A DNA stretch of 21,455 bases, taken from positions 1 to 21,455 of the IMG/VR virus record IMGVR_UViG_3300027721_000090. The stretch is one strand, 5' to 3'. Source of the stretch: a virus. A program made the translations under genes and the position numbers. The notes below the pieces were generated by a model that was given only the letters and a program-made list of their open reading frames with translations, was not told the DNA's origin and searched no databases. Below are positions 2,486-10,316 of this stretch, piece after piece (the stretch's first letter is position 1; each line of letters begins with the position of its first letter).

Positions 2486-2757
2486 TGCAATGCCCTCATG
2501 GTTCGCTGATGCGCTTTCTGCCACATTTCCTGCCTTTCGAGTTTAGTTAGTTTAACACCTTGGTCTATTTCCCAGTGGCATTTCAGGCATAGCGCGGCTA
2601 CCAGGTTGTCATCAGCTTTTATTCCCCTGCCTTTGCCGCCGCCCCAGTTGCTGTGCGCTGCCTGCACCGTTTCCCCGCTGCCGCAGTGCTGGCAATCAAG
2701 CTGCGCCACCCGTTTTAGCAAGGCTTTGTCGCGGACATAGGCGTGTTTAAGAAACAT
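2482..2757 (-). CDS. HNH/zinc-binding nuclease-like protein (DUF1364/YbcO-like)
   Basis: Predicted 91-aa protein with a compact zinc-binding HNH-type layout: Cys22-x2-Cys25, then AAHSN with His35, then a GKGRGIKADDN stretch, and finally Cys57-x2-Cys60-His61 leading into EID. This order resembles the YbcO/DUF1364 phage endonucleases (family knowledge). The start at 2757 has AAGG about seven bases upstream and overlaps the ninB stop by eleven bases; an in-frame upstream extension is rejected because it would run deep into ninB. It follows NinB, the position where lambdoid phages carry NinG or junction-processing nucleases. It probably acts on recombination or replication intermediates; catalytic activity is inferred. 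Confidence 0.7.
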   Translation of the reverse strand: MFLKHAYVRDKALLKRVAQLDCQHCGSGETVQAAHSNWGGGKGRGIKADDNLVAALCLKCHWEIDQGVKLTKLERQEMWQKAHQRTMRALQ

Positions 2758-3154
2758 CGATGCCCTTATCTGCTGACCAGGCCAGCAAGAATTCGATGAA
2801 CTCGCTGCTCTCACTCGTGGTGAATTTGTGGCTTTGCAGGCCAAGCTGAACGATTCTCTCGCCATCCAGGCTTGGGCAGACCTTGCCGATCTTGCGGTTT
2901 GTGTCGTGCGCCCACTGGTCGATCAGCAATCTTTTCCAGTCATCTGCTGTCCAGGTGCTGCCGGCCGAAGCCATTTGCTTGGCTATTTTGTCGATCATGC
3001 TGTGAAACATTGCGTTCTGTTCCACGCTCCGCTTGCTCTGCTTGATTTCAATCGTCATCCGGTGGCCGGCAATCAGCATGGATTTCAGCATCGGCCAAAC
3101 AACGGTCATCATTTCTTTGTGTGCTTGGACGGGTTCCCAGCAAGTGACTTTCAT
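2747..3154 (-). CDS. ninB: NinB-family recombination protein
   Basis: Predicted 135-aa homologue of lambda NinB (Orf), a recombination mediator that binds single-stranded DNA and helps load annealing or RecA-type proteins. The core TIEIKQSKRSVEQNAMFHSM matches the NinB pattern of an isoleucine-rich strand followed by R-S-x-x-Q-N, and FTTSESSEFIEFLLAW matches its C-terminal helix. Length is close to lambda NinB (about 146 aa). The ATG at 3154 overlaps the upstream nuclease stop by ATGA. The plus strand carries an ERF annealing protein and exonuclease, which could be its partners, although they are transcribed divergently. Confidence 0.88.
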   Translation of the reverse strand: MKVTCWEPVQAHKEMMTVVWPMLKSMLIAGHRMTIEIKQSKRSVEQNAMFHSMIDKIAKQMASAGSTWTADDWKRLLIDQWAHDTNRKIGKVCPSLDGERIVQLGLQSHKFTTSESSEFIEFLLAWSADKGIDVS

Positions 3155-3722: not shown

Positions 3723-3965
3723 TCACCACTTTTCATCGGGTTGTTTGTACCAATCAGCAACAGGCTTAGTCAGCGGCTGGCGGTCTGCCCATCGCTTGTA
3801 GCTCATCGTGCTTTCGTTCTTTGGCTTTGCGCCCCACTGATGCCGGCTGCACTTCGGTGGCGATCCTTCCAGGCGCACGCTCCACAGGTTTCCGCAGCCG
3901 TTAACGCTGCACAGCAGGCTTGGGCCGTCATCACGGTTCTTTGATTCTGGTGGTGCAAAACTCAT
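3723..3965 (-). CDS. Small zinc-finger-like protein
   Basis: 80-aa protein with a likely zinc site: Cys19 and Cys24 (CSVNGCGNLWSVR) followed by Cys39 and His42 (PPKCSRHQW). The C-terminal third is rich in W, K and P. Similar short C-x4-C...C-x2-H proteins often follow the replication initiator in beta-proteobacterial phages (general impression). The ATG at 3965 is chosen for its ATGA overlap with the initiator stop; an in-frame upstream extension to about 4019 would lie inside the initiator gene. Its position suggests a replication accessory role, which is unproven. Confidence 0.65.
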   Translation of the reverse strand: MSFAPPESKNRDDGPSLLCSVNGCGNLWSVRLEGSPPKCSRHQWGAKPKNESTMSYKRWADRQPLTKPVADWYKQPDEKW

Positions 3966-4729
3966 TTTGTGTACTTCCCATCTATGATTTTTTGAAAGTT
4001 GGTGGCATTCATTACCCATTCCAGATCAGGCCGCCACGTTCTGCCTGCTGTTTCAAAACCGTTTGACAAGCTGGTGTCTCGGGCAATGTAGTTAAAAAAG
4101 CTGTCCCACCACTTGATGCCTGCGGCTTCCGTCTGATAACCGTCAGGGCTGTATGCGCTTGGCCGGCTGGCCTGGTTCCATCGCTGCTTGGTGTTTGCTC
4201 GGCGTGATCCTTCCCAGCTTCTCGGCTGCGCAAGGTGCGGTAGATGCTTTGCCCAAAGTTTCAAAATCTCCTCTTGCGGACAGGCCATCAGCTTTGCTGT
4301 GGACAAAGTAGCTTTAGCTACTGGTATTAATAATGGTTCTTGGTTATTGGTTATTGGTTCTTGGTTAGCATCGAAAACAGGTTCGTTCGCATTGCGTTCG
4401 GTATGCGTTCGCATAGCATTCGCATTGTTCCAGCGTGCGTTCGCACTGTTTGCCGCCTTCCCTTTCTTCTCGTGATAGTCGGCAATCTCTTTGTCGCAAC
4501 GCTTATGGCGCCACCCTTCATCTTGCAAAACAAAGAAGTGATGGAGAATCAAGCTGATTGTTTTCGCATCCGAACGCATAGCAAACGCAATGCTTTCGCA
4601 TTCGTCTTTCAGCGGCTTTTCGTCTAAGTAGTAGCGCCAGAGCATCCGAAGGTAAACGCCCATCTGGTCGTTACTTAGGTGTCCGGTGTCTTTGAGAAAG
4701 TCACCAATGTGGTGACGGTAATAGTGCAT
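3962..4729 (-). CDS. DUF1376-family replication initiator (lambda O-like role)
   Basis: Predicted 255-aa replication initiation protein. The first about 95 residues, beginning MHYYRHHIGDFLKDTG and including GVYLRMLWRYY, match the DUF1376/YdaU winged-helix domain found in phage replication proteins. The middle (about 100-135) is a low-complexity N/E/P/T-rich linker encoded by the repeat arrays described separately. The C-terminal part (about 150-255) has several tryptophans (LWAKHLPHL, WWDSFFNYIA, TWRPDLEWVM). The layout matches initiators whose gene carries the origin between DNA-binding and partner-binding halves, as in lambda O. The ATG at 4729 has TAAGG upstream. No helicase or helicase loader is seen next to it, so it may recruit the host helicase. 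Confidence 0.85.
   Translation of the reverse strand: MHYYRHHIGDFLKDTGHLSNDQMGVYLRMLWRYYLDEKPLKDECESIAFAMRSDAKTISLILHHFFVLQDEGWRHKRCDKEIADYHEKKGKAANSANARWNNANAMRTHTERNANEPVFDANQEPITNNQEPLLIPVAKATLSTAKLMACPQEEILKLWAKHLPHLAQPRSWEGSRRANTKQRWNQASRPSAYSPDGYQTEAAGIKWWDSFFNYIARDTSLSNGFETAGRTWRPDLEWVMNATNFQKIIDGKYTK
4307..4322. repeat. Perfect inverted repeat AGTAGCT-TT-AGCTACT
   Basis: Seven-base arms with a two-base centre, lying directly beside the DnaA-box-like sequence and just before the A+T-rich heptamers. It may be a protein-binding dyad of the origin. It lies in coding sequence, so it is not a terminator. Confidence 0.6.
4333..4367. repeat. Five tandem 7-bp repeats (consensus TTGGTTM)
   Basis: The heptamers are ATGGTTC, TTGGTTA, TTGGTTA, TTGGTTC and TTGGTTA without gaps. 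A 21-base period makes the encoded peptide repeat as NQEPITN-NQEPLL on the minus strand. The run is A+T-rich and could serve as a DNA-unwinding element. Confidence 0.8.
4384..4448. repeat. 11-bp iteron-like repeats, cluster 1
   Basis: CGTTCGCATTG, CGTTCGGTATG, CGTTCGCATAG and CATTCGCATTG run in tandem (4384-4427), then CGTTCGCACTG follows after ten bases (4438-4448). Eleven bases put each copy on nearly the same face of the helix. The period is not a multiple of three, so selection at DNA level is more likely than a peptide repeat. Confidence 0.8.
4560..4603. repeat. 11-bp iteron-like repeats, cluster 2 (degenerate)
   Basis: GTTTTCGCATC, CGAACGCATAG, CAAACGCAATG and CTTTCGCATTC in tandem. 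They share the core CGCAWnS with cluster 1 and keep the same 11-base spacing, about 110 bases further towards the start of the initiator gene. Confidence 0.6.
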
Positions 4730-4829: not shown

Positions 4830-4991
4830 TTATCGTACAAACCACCCTGGCCGCAACAGTTTCAGCTGCCAAATCCTTTTTTCAGGGATGACCTTCCAGT
4901 GACTGATCGCGGCCTTGGTCACGCCCAGCAGCTTTGCCAGCGCACTCTTGCTGCCAGCTTTGGCAATGATGGTGTCTAGGTCAGGTTGCAT
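4830..4991 (-). CDS. Cro/YdaS-like HTH regulator (53 aa)
   Basis: Small DNA-binding protein starting MQPDLDTIIAKAGSKSALA. The helix-turn-helix is SALAKLLGVTKAAISHWKV (about residues 15-33), followed by IPEKRIWQLKLLRPGW, a layout typical of Cro or the YdaS group. It is the first gene of the leftward operon and faces the rightward early operon across about 155 bases, so it probably regulates both. The ATG at 4991 is chosen because the HTH begins shortly after it and an extended -10 element (TGCTATACA) ends eight bases upstream. The upstream in-frame extension is A+T-rich and lies in the promoter region. The mRNA may therefore be leaderless. Confidence 0.8.
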   Translation of the reverse strand: MQPDLDTIIAKAGSKSALAKLLGVTKAAISHWKVIPEKRIWQLKLLRPGWFVR

Positions 4992-4999
4992 GGCAGCAT

Positions 5000-5008
5000 T
5001 GTATAGCA
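5000..5008 (-). promoter_or_regulatory. Leftward extended -10 promoter for the HTH gene
   Basis: Minus strand TGCTATACA, an extended -10 (TGn plus TATACA). The expected start point falls at or within two bases of the HTH gene ATG at 4991. No convincing -35 is seen at 16-18 bases. Confidence 0.45.
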
Positions 5009-5086
5009 GGCTTAACACCTGAACATAGGGAAAGTACCTAGTCGAAAAGATAAAAATAGTTGAAAAAAGGCTTTGCAGCGGTTTAG

Positions 5087-5098
5087 CTAGGTATACAA
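5087..5098 (+). promoter_or_regulatory. Rightward early promoter -10 with overlapping operator half-site
   Basis: TATACAAT at 5092-5099 lies 48 bases before the first rightward gene. CTAGGTA (5087-5093) overlaps it and is the exact inverse of TACCTAG at 5035-5041, so a regulator bound at both could cover the intergenic region. The -35 is weak (GGCTTT at 5069-5074 with 17-base spacing). Confidence 0.4.
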
Positions 5099-5146
5099 TA
5101 GCGTCAATCCCCAGCAAATTGCAAAGGGTCTTTTTAGGAAAACATC

Positions 5147-5695: not shown

Positions 5696-5961
5696 ATCAT
5701 GCAATCAATTGGACGCTGGCAGCTTTGACAGCATTGATCTTGTCTACCGCATACCTGCTTGACGGCCCTAGTGATCACCAGGCTGCGATTGATGCCGCGG
5801 CTGATGCCAAGGCTACGCAAGCAGAAAAAAGAGCGCAGGCGAGGTTTGAGAAGGCTGCACAGGCAATGTGTGGCGATAACGCAGGGTGGACGCAGCTGGA
5901 GAACGGTGCTGTCCAATGTTTCAACAAAACGGGTCGCAAGACTCAGAAAGTGCAATTGTGA
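5692..5961 (+). CDS. Membrane-anchored small protein (89 aa)
   Basis: One N-terminal hydrophobic segment (about residues 7-24, WTLAALTALILSTAYLLD) is followed by an Ala/Lys/Gln-rich probable coiled coil. The C-terminal domain has two cysteines in AMCGDNAGWTQ and AVQCFNKTG, which could form a disulfide if periplasmic. The arrangement suggests a signal anchor with a periplasmic tail. I have a general impression of similar proteins in Burkholderiales phages, without a known function. ATGA overlap upstream, GTGA overlap downstream. Confidence 0.7.
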   Translation: MNHAINWTLAALTALILSTAYLLDGPSDHQAAIDAAADAKATQAEKRAQARFEKAAQAMCGDNAGWTQLENGAVQCFNKTGRKTQKVQL

Positions 5962-6155
5962 AGATCGAAGATATCTTGTCCGGGATTACGGACATTGCCA
6001 ACCGTGCATATGAGAGTGCTGCCGCTGAAGACCGGCTGGCGTTTGAATGCGGAATGCTTTCCAGCAAGTTGCGTGAAATGGCGTATCTGTTGGAAAACGC
6101 CCAGGAGCGCATCAAGGAACTCGAAATCGAACTGGCTTACAAGGATAAAAAATGA
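5958..6155 (+). CDS. Helical hypothetical protein, GTG start (65 aa)
   Basis: Starts at GTG 5958, which forms a GTGA overlap with the previous stop; the frame is open further upstream but that would lie inside the previous gene. The protein (first residues VKIEDILSGITDIANRAYE) is predicted to be almost wholly alpha-helical, ending in a heptad-like coiled coil LENAQERIKELEIELAYK. Function unknown. Confidence 0.65.
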   Translation: MKIEDILSGITDIANRAYESAAAEDRLAFECGMLSSKLREMAYLLENAQERIKELEIELAYKDKK

Positions 6156-6340
6156 CAACTATGACCATGATTCACGACGTCAAATCGATCGAGATGACTG
6201 AGGCAAGGGAAAGCACTGGTGGTGTGGCCGGGCCTTTTTGGACGCGCAAGCTGACATTGGTGGACAGCAAGGGCAATGAAACACAGATCACACTGTTTTC
6301 TGGAAACAAAGAACCATTGCAAATTAAGGAGAAGACATGA
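6152..6340 (+). CDS. Small hypothetical protein upstream of ERF (62 aa)
   Basis: Unknown function. The segment WTRKLTLVDSKGNETQITLFSG looks like two beta strands with a turn, as in small phage proteins placed next to recombination genes. ATGA overlaps on both sides place it firmly in the operon. Two further Met codons (residues 4 and 6) are possible alternative starts. Confidence 0.65.
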   Translation: MTTMTMIHDVKSIEMTEARESTGGVAGPFWTRKLTLVDSKGNETQITLFSGNKEPLQIKEKT

Positions 6341-6933
6341 AAATTTACAAAGCAATCAATGCCGTGCAGACAGAACTGTCAACCATTGGCATCACCAAAG
6401 ATCACACCAACTCGCAAGGGTCTGGTTACAAATTCCGTGGCATTGACGATGTTTACAACGCGATCAGCCCTCTTCTGGCTAAACATGGGCTTTGCATTCT
6501 GCCGCGAGTGTTGACCAGGGAATGCGTGGAGCGCTCCAGCAAGGCCGGCGCAGCTTTGTTCTATGTGACCGTTGAGGTTGAATTTGATTTTGTTTCGGCC
6601 GAGGATGGCAGCAAACACACTGTCAAGACCTTTGGCGAAGCAATGGACAGCGGTGACAAGGCCACCAACAAAGCAATGAGTGCAGCTTACAAATACGCAG
6701 CGTTCCAGGCGTTTAGCATTCCGACCGAATCAGACAATGACGCGGATGCATCCACCCATGTTGTGCAATCAACGGAAGCAACAATTAAAGCAATACTGGC
6801 TGACATTGAAGCCTGCACAACTCACGACCAACTGAAAGAAGCATTTTTCACAGGGATAAAAGCAGCAGGCAATAACCAGATTGCCCGCGACCAGATTACT
6901 AAAGCAAAAGACTTACAAAAAGCAAAACTATAA
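6337..6933 (+). CDS. erf: ERF-family single-strand annealing protein
   Basis: Predicted 198-aa essential recombination function protein, which anneals complementary single strands during phage recombination and genome circularisation. The N-terminal ERF domain is clear: MKIYKAINAVQTELSTIGI, then GYKFRGIDDVYNAISPLLAKHG, then FGEAMDSGDKATNKAMSAAYKYAAFQAFSIPTE, which is the family signature. The C-terminal 60 residues are a less conserved helical tail ending KAKL. It is slightly shorter than P22 Erf. It belongs with the exonuclease at 7714 and the SSB-like protein at 8352, but an A+T-rich gene separates them. Confidence 0.95.
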   Translation: MKIYKAINAVQTELSTIGITKDHTNSQGSGYKFRGIDDVYNAISPLLAKHGLCILPRVLTRECVERSSKAGAALFYVTVEVEFDFVSAEDGSKHTVKTFGEAMDSGDKATNKAMSAAYKYAAFQAFSIPTESDNDADASTHVVQSTEATIKAILADIEACTTHDQLKEAFFTGIKAAGNNQIARDQITKAKDLQKAKL

Positions 6934-6938
6934 AAACT

Positions 6939-7457
6939 ATGGCAATCACAAAAAAGATGATGCTTGATTGCATAAAACGGGAATGCAAATTAGAAATTCC
7001 AGAAAGAAAACGCAAAGGACCAAGCCATCAACACCCATTATTTGCTTGGATAAAAGGAGCGCCAAAAATACAAGGTAAAAGTCGCATTCAATGTGTACTT
7101 GATAACCAAGCTCGCTGGCCTTGGACAACATTAAATTCTGTTGGGTACGATTTTAAAGACCGAATAACAAAAAAAAGAAACTTGTCGTTTGTGCAAAACA
7201 ATTTACTGCAAATTTATATTCAACATAGATTTCCTGGTCGTTATCAATGGGATAACTCATATTTTCCAGCAGACTTTTATTTGTTAGCAGAGAAAAACCA
7301 GCGTATACGAAGTGCCGGCAGAGTTACCAGTATTTTTGTAGATGAGTGTTTAAAAAAAAGAAATTTATGTGCCTACAAAAAAATGCCGTTACGTTTAATT
7401 TTGTCGCCTGAGTTTTGCATTTTGATCAACCTTAAATTTATGGAGTATTACTTATGA
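6939..7457 (+). CDS. A+T-rich orphan protein inserted in the recombination cassette
   Basis: 172-aa basic protein that I do not recognise. Segments include KGPSHQHPLFAWIKGAPKIQ, DNQARWPWTTLNSVGYDF, RFPGRYQWDNSYFPADFYLL and a C-terminal hydrophobic ending ILINLKFMEYYL. No HNH, GIY-YIG, LAGLIDADG or transposase motif is visible. Composition stands out: three sampled 60-base rows hold 22, 19 and 18 G/C, against about 28 in a row of the exonuclease gene. It has no good ribosome site, although TATAAA lies just upstream. The stop overlaps the next start by ATGA. Probably a recent acquisition (moron-like); function unknown. Confidence 0.7.
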   Translation: MAITKKMMLDCIKRECKLEIPERKRKGPSHQHPLFAWIKGAPKIQGKSRIQCVLDNQARWPWTTLNSVGYDFKDRITKKRNLSFVQNNLLQIYIQHRFPGRYQWDNSYFPADFYLLAEKNQRIRSAGRVTSIFVDECLKKRNLCAYKKMPLRLILSPEFCILINLKFMEYYL

Positions 7458-7717
7458 AAGCACCAAAAACAATGCCAGAGTTGCGTGACGCACTGGCTCA
7501 CATCATGGCTGGCGCCATCAATGGCGATGTAAAGATGGACGAAGGCCGACTTGCTTTGAATGCCGCCACCCGCATCATTGAATCTGTGCAAGCGGAAACC
7601 CGAGCCAGGGCTTTGGCGTTTGCCACTCGCCAAGTAATTGACCCTGAAATGCCATTGGTAGGAATGATTTTTCAACCTGAACAAGCTGTTTTAGAAAACC
7701 AAAAGGCAAAACTATGA
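7454..7717 (+). CDS. Small hypothetical protein between erf and exonuclease (87 aa)
   Basis: Starts MKAPKTMPELRDALAHIMAG and is mostly helical (GRLALNAATRIIESVQAETRARAL). Similar short proteins with MPELR near the start are, in my experience, found near phage recombination genes, but no function is known to me. Base composition returns to the operon norm here, unlike the preceding gene. Its end shares the bases GCAAAACTAT with the end of erf. ATGA overlaps with both neighbours. Confidence 0.7.
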   Translation: MKAPKTMPELRDALAHIMAGAINGDVKMDEGRLALNAATRIIESVQAETRARALAFATRQVIDPEMPLVGMIFQPEQAVLENQKAKL

Positions 7718-8343
7718 GCATCCTGTTTCGCGCCAGCGCATTGAGCGCAATCATGACCGACGGCAAGGGCAAAGACGAACTGTCTGTCGGTGCTAAGACC
7801 TACGTCACCAAGCTGGCCAAAGAGTTTGTCTACGGTTATGACGAGCGGGTCAGCAGCAAGTATATGGACAAGGGCATTCAGGTCGAAGACGAATCAATCG
7901 ACCTTTACAACGCTGTCCACCTGACCAGCCATGCAAAGAACACCGAGCGCCGAAACAATGCTTGGATTACCGGCGAGGCTGACATTGTGGCGGATGACAG
8001 GATTATTGACATCAAAAGCAGCTGGTGTCTGACCACCTTTCCCGTCCTGGCTGATCAAGGTGAAGACAAGGGCTATGAATGGCAGCTGCGCGCTTACATG
8101 ATGTTGTGGGACAAGCCACGGGCAGACATTGCTTACTGCCTGGTCAGCACTCCTGCGGATCTGATCGGCTGGGAGAATAAATCATTGCACCAGGTTGACC
8201 ACATCAATCGAGAACTGCGCGTAACCATCGTTCCATATGAAAGGGATGCAACACTAGAAGACAAGATCAAAGTAAAAGTCGAAGCGGCCAGGGTCTATTA
8301 CGACCAGGTTATCCAAGAAATCAGCAAACAACATACCTACTGA
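7714..8343 (+). CDS. YqaJ/lambda-exonuclease-like PD-(D/E)XK nuclease
   Basis: Predicted 5'-3' double-strand DNA exonuclease (209 aa) producing the single strands that the ERF protein anneals. The fold signature is complete: an acidic helix IQVEDESIDLY (Glu58 or Glu60), ITGEADIVADDRIIDIKSSW with Asp90 and Asp99-x-Lys101, and QLRAYMMLW (124-132), which matches motif IV of the YqaJ/RecB group. Length is near that of lambda exonuclease (226 aa). ATGA overlap with the gene before; eight bases separate it from the SSB-like gene. The pairing erf plus exonuclease is a standard two-component phage recombination system. Confidence 0.88.
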   Translation: MSILFRASALSAIMTDGKGKDELSVGAKTYVTKLAKEFVYGYDERVSSKYMDKGIQVEDESIDLYNAVHLTSHAKNTERRNNAWITGEADIVADDRIIDIKSSWCLTTFPVLADQGEDKGYEWQLRAYMMLWDKPRADIAYCLVSTPADLIGWENKSLHQVDHINRELRVTIVPYERDATLEDKIKVKVEAARVYYDQVIQEISKQHTY

Positions 8344-8351
8344 AAGAAATC

Positions 8352-8591
8352 ATGGCAATCATCAAAGAAATCAGCTGCATCGTCGGCCAATACACCAACA
8401 GCCAGGGCGAGAAGAAGAACCGCTATCAGCGCATTGGCAGCATCATTCAGGGACAGCGCGGCGATATGTTAAAGCTGGACGTTATCCCATTGAAAGAAGG
8501 CGGCTGGGATGGCTGGGCATATCTCAATGACCCCAAGCCGAAAGAGTACCAGGGCCTGCCAAAAGATGAAGACAGCGACGTGCCATTTTGA
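8352..8591 (+). CDS. Small SSB-like protein with acidic C-terminal tip
   Basis: 79-aa protein likely to act with the recombination pair. The N-terminal 60 residues read as a short beta barrel (EISCIVGQYTNSQGEKKNRYQRI, then MLKLDVIPLKEGGWDGWAYLN). The last residues DEDSDVPF resemble the acidic tip of bacterial SSB (DDDIPF), which recruits repair and replication partners. It is much shorter than SSB (about 110 or more residues), so it may be a minimal OB-like phage SSB or an SSB-tip mimic. The fold and DNA binding are inference; the tail and context are seen. Confidence 0.6.
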   Translation: MAIIKEISCIVGQYTNSQGEKKNRYQRIGSIIQGQRGDMLKLDVIPLKEGGWDGWAYLNDPKPKEYQGLPKDEDSDVPF

Positions 8592-8603
8592 GGAGAAGAC
8601 AGC

Positions 8604-8867
8604 ATGAGTATCTTAGAAGAAATTGCGGTTAATCGCGCACCCTCTCACATCGTGCGCCCCGCAGCCCTTGAGCTTCAAAAGAAAACCAAGGAAACGCTTG
8701 GGCCATACGTTGAAAGGCAGAAGCTGCCCAACGAAGTGAAGGCAGCAGAGAACAACTTGTGGCAGCGTAAACACTACAGAACTGGTGACGGTGACTACAC
8801 CGCACAGGTGCCACGGGCAGGTAGCCTTGTGGCTTTTAGCCTGCCGAGCCGGGGGAATCGGACATGA
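8604..8867 (+). CDS. Hypothetical protein (87 aa)
   Basis: Strong ribosome site GAGGAGAAG precedes the ATG. The protein starts MSILEEIAVNRAPSHIVRP and ends RAGSLVAFSLPSRGNRT, with a basic middle (LWQRKHYRTGDGDYT). No family recognised. The first residues MSIL and the DNA around the start resemble the exonuclease start, probably by chance. ATGA overlap with the next gene. Confidence 0.65.
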   Translation: MSILEEIAVNRAPSHIVRPAALELQKKTKETLGPYVERQKLPNEVKAAENNLWQRKHYRTGDGDYTAQVPRAGSLVAFSLPSRGNRT

Positions 8868-9073
8868 CAACAAACACAGGAGGCCCAGCGTTTCCGGCGC
8901 AAGTCAAATTCTTTGACGAGCCTACAACCGGCATGACCCTGCGCGATTACTTCGCGGCCAAGGCGATGGCATCATTAGGGTTTACTACCAAGCCTTACGA
9001 CACCACTGCTGAAACGGCAAAGAAATGCTACCAAATGGCAGACGCAATGCTACGTGCGAGGGAGTTGACATGA
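8864..9073 (+). CDS. Conserved-type phage hypothetical (69 aa)
   Basis: Contains the pattern GGPAFPAQV, GMTLRDYFAAKAMAS and KKCYQMADAMLRARE, which I recognise as a very common but uncharacterised phage accessory protein (GGPAFP...GMSLRDxFA...AxxYxxADAML). The role is unknown. ATGA overlap at both ends. Confidence 0.75.
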   Translation: MTTNTGGPAFPAQVKFFDEPTTGMTLRDYFAAKAMASLGFTTKPYDTTAETAKKCYQMADAMLRARELT

Positions 9074-9930: not shown

Positions 9931-10316
9931 CTGACCTAAGACAAGCCGCGCAGCAGGCGCTGGAGGCGTTGAGAGAGTTTGGTTATCACGGTAGTTCGCC
10001 ACGTTGGGAGCGTGTGGCTAACGCATTAACCGCCGCGTTGAAAGAGCAAGATTTAGAGCCGGTGGCGTGGATATTTACGCCAAATACAGACTTGCTTTGG
10101 CCTGCTGAAGTCGAAGCAAAAAACCCTATTGAATTAAACAGCTATCAACCCCTATACACCACCCCACCCGCAGCAAAGCCAGCACAGCGCAAGCCGCTGA
10201 CGGAGGAGGTTATTTGGGAAATTTGGCACAGGATGCCCAAAGACGGTGCAATAACAGTAACAGCATTTGCCCAAGCCATCGAAGCCGCCCACAACATCAA
10301 GGAGAAGAACACATGA
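9927..10316 (+). CDS. Modular accessory protein with PVAW / LYTTPP segments (129 aa)
   Basis: Order of segments: RQAAQQALEALREF, LEPVAWIF, YQPLYTTPPAAKPAQRKPL, and a helical end ALAQAIEAA-like (FAQAIEAAHNIKEKNT). The next two genes reuse some of these units with exact DNA repeats (see repeat entries), so the family seems to be built by shuffling. Function unknown. ATGA overlaps with both neighbours. Confidence 0.7.
   Translation: MTDLRQAAQQALEALREFGYHGSSPRWERVANALTAALKEQDLEPVAWIFTPNTDLLWPAEVEAKNPIELNSYQPLYTTPPAAKPAQRKPLTEEVIWEIWHRMPKDGAITVTAFAQAIEAAHNIKEKNT

Follow-up and report, generated by a model that had tools for sequence, protein, structure and literature searches.

A two-gene cassette, orf172 and g87, has almost certainly been inserted at the junction between an annealing recombinase gene (erf) and a recombination exonuclease gene (exo) of an environmental phage, as judged by comparison with related loci. 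The DNA that we analysed is a record of 21,455 bp (hereafter, the window), in which a + strand operon has the order erf, orf172, g87, exo. A first-pass annotation of this sequence had proposed that a single orphan gene, orf172, was inserted between erf and its exonuclease and that a short repeat was the scar of the event. The empty site of relatives such as L003 bears out the insertion and its scar, but the inserted unit consists of two genes, of which g87 is the conserved one, and orf172 has relatives. Both orf172 and g87 are real protein genes, with g87 the more constrained of the two.

Organization of the locus

The features of the locus are as follows.

6337-6933, + strand: erf, Erf-family ssDNA-annealing recombinase, 198 aa (Pfam ERF, E 1.3e-24; phrog_155, E 2e-37)
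6916-6931, + strand: left copy of the 16-bp junction repeat, formed by the final erf codons (includes 6922-6931)
6932-7715, equally 6916-7699, + strand: very probable insertion, 784 bp relative to the empty site (blastn against L003)
6939-7457, + strand: orf172, 172 aa, A+T-rich, basic (pI 9.9), predicted all-helical, first gene of the pair
7454-7717, + strand: g87, 87 aa, conserved, second gene of the pair
7700-7715, + strand: right copy of the junction repeat, formed by the final g87 codons
7714-8343, + strand: exo, recombination exonuclease, 209 aa (phrog_5715 exonuclease, E 4.4e-64)

The erf and exo genes are the upstream and downstream flanks of the insertion, respectively. g87 starts inside the ATGA that closes orf172 and ends inside the ATGA that opens exo, and the two genes constitute a translationally coupled pair that interrupts the erf-exonuclease operon. 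The ATG of orf172 lies five bases past erf and lacks the upstream GGAG present in the L162 and L163 relatives (L numbers, L002-L169, designate viral contig loci), which places the left break at or beside the orf172 start codon. A scan for the sigma-70-like consensus found no + strand promoter-like site preceding orf172, and no + strand terminator-like site was found in 6337-8343, including after orf172.

Several other features were observed in the window. Genes for a Dam methyltransferase (1015-1629), NinB (2747-3154) and a DUF1376 protein (3962-4729) are on the - strand, and NinB is set apart from erf-exo because its gene is on this opposite strand. An Rfam int-alpA RNA match (RF02996, 4754-4823, - strand; 40.9 bits, gathering score 35.8, E 1.7e-05) adjoins a 95-aa ORF (4830-5117) that is Cro-like by eye. 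At 8930-8968, 36-39 bp are nearly identical to Pseudomonas phages over the peptide GMTLRDYFAAKAM, and a near-identical peptide is encoded downstream of g87 in L165, L166 and L167. At 10281-10316, the window shares 36 identical bp with a Caudoviricetes record from Manatee Spring (MW202484.1), in a part of that record lacking annotation. The DNA surrounding these last two matches was unmatched.

The erf-exo junction in related phages

The first-pass annotation had suggested looking at whether erf and the gene starting at 7454 are adjacent in related phages. We kept 80 loci out of at least 96 confirmed exo relatives, and in 65 of them the annealing gene abuts exo, ending at most 15 bp from its start. 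The remaining loci had larger gaps (5), no erf match (7) or less than 150 bp of upstream sequence (3); the larger gap in L071 and L073 corresponds to a diverged erf tail, as inspected for L073. L003 is a close relative, whose Erf and Exo proteins are 97% and 98% identical to those of the window and whose junction is uninterrupted. By blastn, window positions 5887-6931 matched L003 2959-4002 and positions 7700-8700 matched L003 3987-4982. Since these two matched stretches overlap by 16 bp in L003, its site has one copy of the junction sequence. The exact breakpoint lies somewhere inside the repeat, giving two equivalent sets of coordinates for the insertion. A search of whole records for the pair covered 50 records, namely 44 of the 80 exo loci and six of the eight g87 loci described below (L165 and L167 excluded); in the 44 exo-relative records, neither orf172 nor g87 was found elsewhere.

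The 10-bp repeat GCAAAACTAT reported in the first-pass annotation is exact at 6922-6931 and 7706-7715 (two matches, with 0.08 expected for that pattern), but its full extent is larger: it is the core of a 16-bp repeat, CAAAARGCAAAACTAT, present at 6916-6931 and 7700-7715 with 15 of 16 positions identical and a spacing of 784. Within a 2-kb region, nine distinct 10-mers recurred, as compared to a mean of 2.5 and a maximum of 10 in mononucleotide shuffles, and at least 10 bp were common to 3 out of 78 pairs of + strand gene starts versus 2 out of 2,980 pairs of random positions. Taken alone, the repeat would be unremarkable, as words of this length are occasionally common to gene starts of the operon; the repeat gains meaning because relatives have the uninterrupted site. 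In L021 and L030, the uninterrupted erf-exo junction has exactly the 16 bp of the right copy, and the 10-bp core was present at the junction position in 13 out of 79 loci. As the right copy is the sequence of an uninterrupted junction, the C-terminal residues of g87 read QKAKL, like those of erf. The ATGA overlap with exo, provided here by g87, is provided in many relatives by erf itself.

A deletion in the relatives instead of an insertion in the window was rejected by parsimony, as erf and exo were joined in loci whose exonucleases ranged from 99% down to 69% identity. A transposon was also discarded, since an inverted repeat was not seen at the insert ends and neither inserted gene matched a transposase family. 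Other small genes, of 58-166 aa, were found at the same junction in L075 (1373-1873), L076 (3505-4005), L081 (3648-3995) and L139 (4606-4782). These genes are unrelated, and filling the site in other relatives they mark the annealing-gene/exonuclease junction as a recurrent insertion site. Regarding the annealing gene, in many exo relatives (L002-L081) it matched the window erf only C-terminally, with matches starting at residues 64-113. This suggests that its N-terminal part may have been swapped upstream of a conserved tail.

According to passages of PMC3945230, phage Rad52-like recombinases need shorter identities than RecA; for Red-beta, they cite 23-27 bp as the minimal segment. The 16 bp of the junction repeat fall below this range, so an illegitimate or a multi-step exchange is equally possible.

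Conservation of g87 and its upstream partners

Searches with g87 recovered eight other viral contigs, and a degenerate DNA pattern of its core retrieved the same eight and no others. These represent about six lineages, given that L166 is nearly a duplicate of L167 and that L162 is closely related to L163. g87 had no match among 72,556 plasmid records or across 84,980 scanned genomes, and exo gave none in the genome scan either. Over residues 1-60, amino-acid identities in the 21 pairwise comparisons were 68-100% and third-position identities 37-72%; dS was higher than 1.4 or saturated in 20 out of 21 pairs (the exception was L165-L166). g87 is under very strong purifying selection at the protein level.

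All eight contigs carry a gene directly upstream of g87. The relatives of orf172 were located because the g87 search recovered neighbours that orf172 alone had missed: orf172 by itself found nothing among the viral contigs. Proteins 44-45% identical to orf172 precede g87 in L162 and L163, and a remote relative precedes it in L164 (profile E 4.2e-10). Those of L165-L167 are more remote and are linked to the orf172 family through L164 only (A5 against L164, E 1e-5), their direct comparison with the family (A4 against A5) giving an E of 0.008 and a probability of 4.9%. Relatives thus counted lie immediately upstream of g87 in six of the eight contigs. In the other two, L168 and L169, the place is taken by different, Cys-containing basic proteins, and the orf172 profile had no match in either record. 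The upstream proteins are basic throughout, with pI values of 9.4-10.5 (computed for the window and seven of the eight contigs, L167 excluded). Close pairs of orf172 relatives had dN/dS of about 0.13 (L162-L163) and 0.17 (L165-L166). g87 and its upstream basic partner travel together, and orf172, given its rare distant relatives, is not a true orphan.

Composition, structure and homology searches of orf172 and g87

The first-pass annotation had noted that orf172 is far below its neighbours in G+C and has a distinct codon character, and our measurements agreed. Its G+C is 34.7% and its GC3 30%, as compared to a mean GC3 of about 57% for 11 + strand neighbours; among 10,000 samples of 172 neighbour codons, GC3 was never below 43.6%. 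The 519-bp windows with the lowest G+C of the record are those of the orf172 region, the next lowest elsewhere being 39.1%. g87, at 48.5% G+C, is not deviant, and the A+T-rich stretch is confined to orf172. The relatives in L162, L163 and L164 are also about 10 points lower in G+C than their own contig stretches (1-2 points in L165 and L166). Judging from L162-L164, at least part of the compositional deviation is characteristic of the family.

The predicted orf172 model consists mostly of helices (mean pLDDT 62, pTM 0.58) and that of g87 is a helical hairpin (pLDDT 71, pTM 0.46). Foldseek returned no match at E <= 0.001 for g87 or for the weak orf172 model, so that, as far as such a model allows testing, the earlier statement that orf172 has no recognised fold holds. 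The top VIA-align row for the orf172 model, of mean pLDDT 62, was T4 UvsY (Z 3.7, rmsd 2.9, 49 aligned); such a Z is common for helical models, and we draw nothing from this row. Sequence searches of the PDB gave zero matches for g87 and a single one for the orf172 family (E 0.82). Neither gene had a convincing match to Pfam, NCBIfam, PHROGs, PADLOC or a solved structure, and Pfam had none for the orf172 relatives in L162, L164 and L165 or for the alternative partner in L168. Weak matches to phrog_23038 (E 0.081), HamC (E 0.035) and NF041127 (E 0.027; 12.6 bits versus a 1500-bit cut-off) were dismissed as noise. Searches of 50,697 phage records with orf172 and g87 by tblastn, and of phage records with the L162 homologue of orf172, found nothing. 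Alignments of the orf172 family led to no further contig, L170-L172 being the contigs of L162, L163 and L166.

Genomic contexts of the pair

The recognisable contexts of the pair are recombination modules of three kinds. In the window, the pair lies between Erf and Exo. In L162, it is preceded by Sak4 and SSB and followed by a Gam-like gene (phrog_253, Pfam Gp157); by eye, the same genes directly flank it in L163. In L168, g87 and its alternative partner are located between a phrog_69 exonuclease followed by Gp2.5, on one side, and a DNA polymerase on the other; we take this exonuclease to be a DUF2800 member. A duf2800-gp2.5-polA order is described as a module in passages of PMC8093625. Among the ORFs scanned in L164, L165, L166, L167 and L169, none adjoining the pair was recognisable as a recombination gene. 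In L166, a polymerase-like ORF was noticed by eye about 2.7 kb downstream.

Discussion

Tentatively, we interpret the pair as a mobile unit of two proteins that is accessory to phage recombination modules. Since its rare distant relatives also occupy recombination or replication regions of some other phages, it is more likely to assist phage DNA recombination than to be an isolated oddity. The empty site, the linkage of both genes, the selection on them, their contexts and the precedent of P22 and HK620 speak for such a role, and a near-invariant small helical core with a variable basic partner, set between an annealing protein and a nuclease, would fit a mediator or a modulator of host nucleases. 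Against it, fold searches tied neither orf172 nor g87 to recombination, and five of the eight other g87 contigs have no recognised recombination neighbour among the ORFs scanned. Position may also say little about function, because recombination regions are zones of gene exchange (L075, L076, L081 and L139), and L162, where a Gam-like gene already adjoins the pair, would have no need of a further nuclease inhibitor.

If the pair serves the recombination module, g87 might bind a conserved target such as the annealing complex, an SSB or a RecBCD/AddAB-type repair enzyme of the host, and the basic upstream protein (orf172 here, other proteins elsewhere) might bind nucleic acid and adapt the unit to a given phage. 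Jointly, they could assist in loading the annealing protein of the phage or guide a host end-processing nuclease, much as has been proposed for P22 Abc2 and Erf. The cassette would have been gained through short-homology recombination, in frame, restoring the ATGA coupling to exo. A broader reading, which we regard as unlikely, is that phage recombination mediators of an undescribed class, built around g87 as their conserved core, serve Erf, Sak4 and Gp2.5 modules alike, with the upstream basic partner as an interchangeable nucleic-acid-binding adaptor; evolution would then swap the adaptor and retain the g87 core.

Passages of PMC9836394 report that P22 Abc2, which binds RecBCD, has been proposed to cause this enzyme to load Erf, that the roles of Abc1 and Arf are unclear and that Arf is acidic. 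In HK620, as stated in parts of PMC5928155, an unrelated gene occupies the place of arf and an SSB, which stimulates the recombinase, that of abc1. As far as these excerpts go, P22 arf, abc1 and abc2 and HK620 hkaM are accessory genes, some mutually unrelated, at matching positions (PMC5928155, PMC9836394). The pair resembles arf, abc1 and abc2 in being composed of small accessory genes of an Erf recombination module, exchangeable between phages and at a comparable position. In contrast to Arf as described there, orf172 is basic, and the pair is situated between erf and the exonuclease gene. Compared through family models only (Pfam, PHROG and NCBIfam), Abc2, Abc1 and Arf gave no convincing match to the pair. 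The Gp157/Gam-like end-protection protein (phrog_253, PF05565) belongs to the same kind of module and is encoded directly downstream of the pair in L162, but it is of another protein family than orf172 and g87, and the pair does not replace it there since both lie side by side. Our searches of the literature on phage recombination modules brought up nothing recognisable as this pair. The kind, accessory genes of phage recombination modules, is already known; orf172 and g87 themselves seem to be undescribed.

The first-pass annotation had also speculated that orf172 was a moron. Morons are extra DNA separating genes that adjoin each other in relatives, with deviant composition and their own promoter and terminator. 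The pair resembles them as extra DNA (784 bp relative to L003) between genes joined in 65 of 80 loci and in the deviant composition of orf172, which g87 does not share. A classical self-contained unit is not indicated, since the sigma-70-like consensus scan gave it no + strand promoter, no + strand terminator-like site follows it, and it is coupled to the downstream gene through ATGA. The missing promoter and terminator on the + strand also weigh against the idea, which we find rather unlikely, that the pair is anti-defence or other fitness cargo that guards the phage and sits early in the operon only for timely expression. An accessory, rare and A+T-rich pair, inserted in one lineage at an early operon position and at a junction accepting varied small genes, would agree with such cargo, and a conserved g87 with a variable partner would suit an arms race. 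However, such cargo would not be predicted to recur in three kinds of recombination module, and PADLOC matches were absent or at noise level (this library covers defence systems, not counter-defence). Regulation is doubtful: the basic protein would act as a transcription or antitermination factor, with g87 as co-factor, to control early or late genes. The upstream proteins are indeed basic and helical, and in L164 the pair is closely followed by a gene that has a Cys-rich motif and resembles, by eye only, a Q antiterminator. Nonetheless, that gene has no Pfam match, no HTH or antiterminator family was found with Pfam, PHROG or NCBIfam models, and the operon that received the pair works without it in the 65 joined loci.

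The overlap of the two short genes, their mobility and the combination of a basic with a near-neutral protein recall a toxin-antitoxin or exclusion pair, which we consider very unlikely: no toxin or antitoxin family was matched in Pfam, NCBIfam or PADLOC, the partner of g87 spans more than one family and, while such pairs are usually common in plasmids and genomes, g87 had no match in those searched. Still more improbable is the self-insertion of a free-standing homing endonuclease gene into a conserved junction. An A+T-rich gene between conserved genes and a clean empty site would be expected from it, but no Pfam nuclease family (HNH, GIY-YIG, LAGLIDADG or PD-(D/E)XK) was matched, D10 is the only invariant acidic position in a six-row orf172 alignment, and the relatives are located at unrelated sites, each of those found followed by g87.

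Recombination modules determine how phages shuffle genes and how they survive the end-processing nucleases of the host, and several of their small accessories (Arf, Abc1 and HkaM) have no known role. A near-invariant core with a swapped partner in three kinds of module may offer a tractable route to the common target of these accessories. In addition, the empty and filled sites constitute a clean case of cargo gain inside an operon in which downstream translational coupling is intact.
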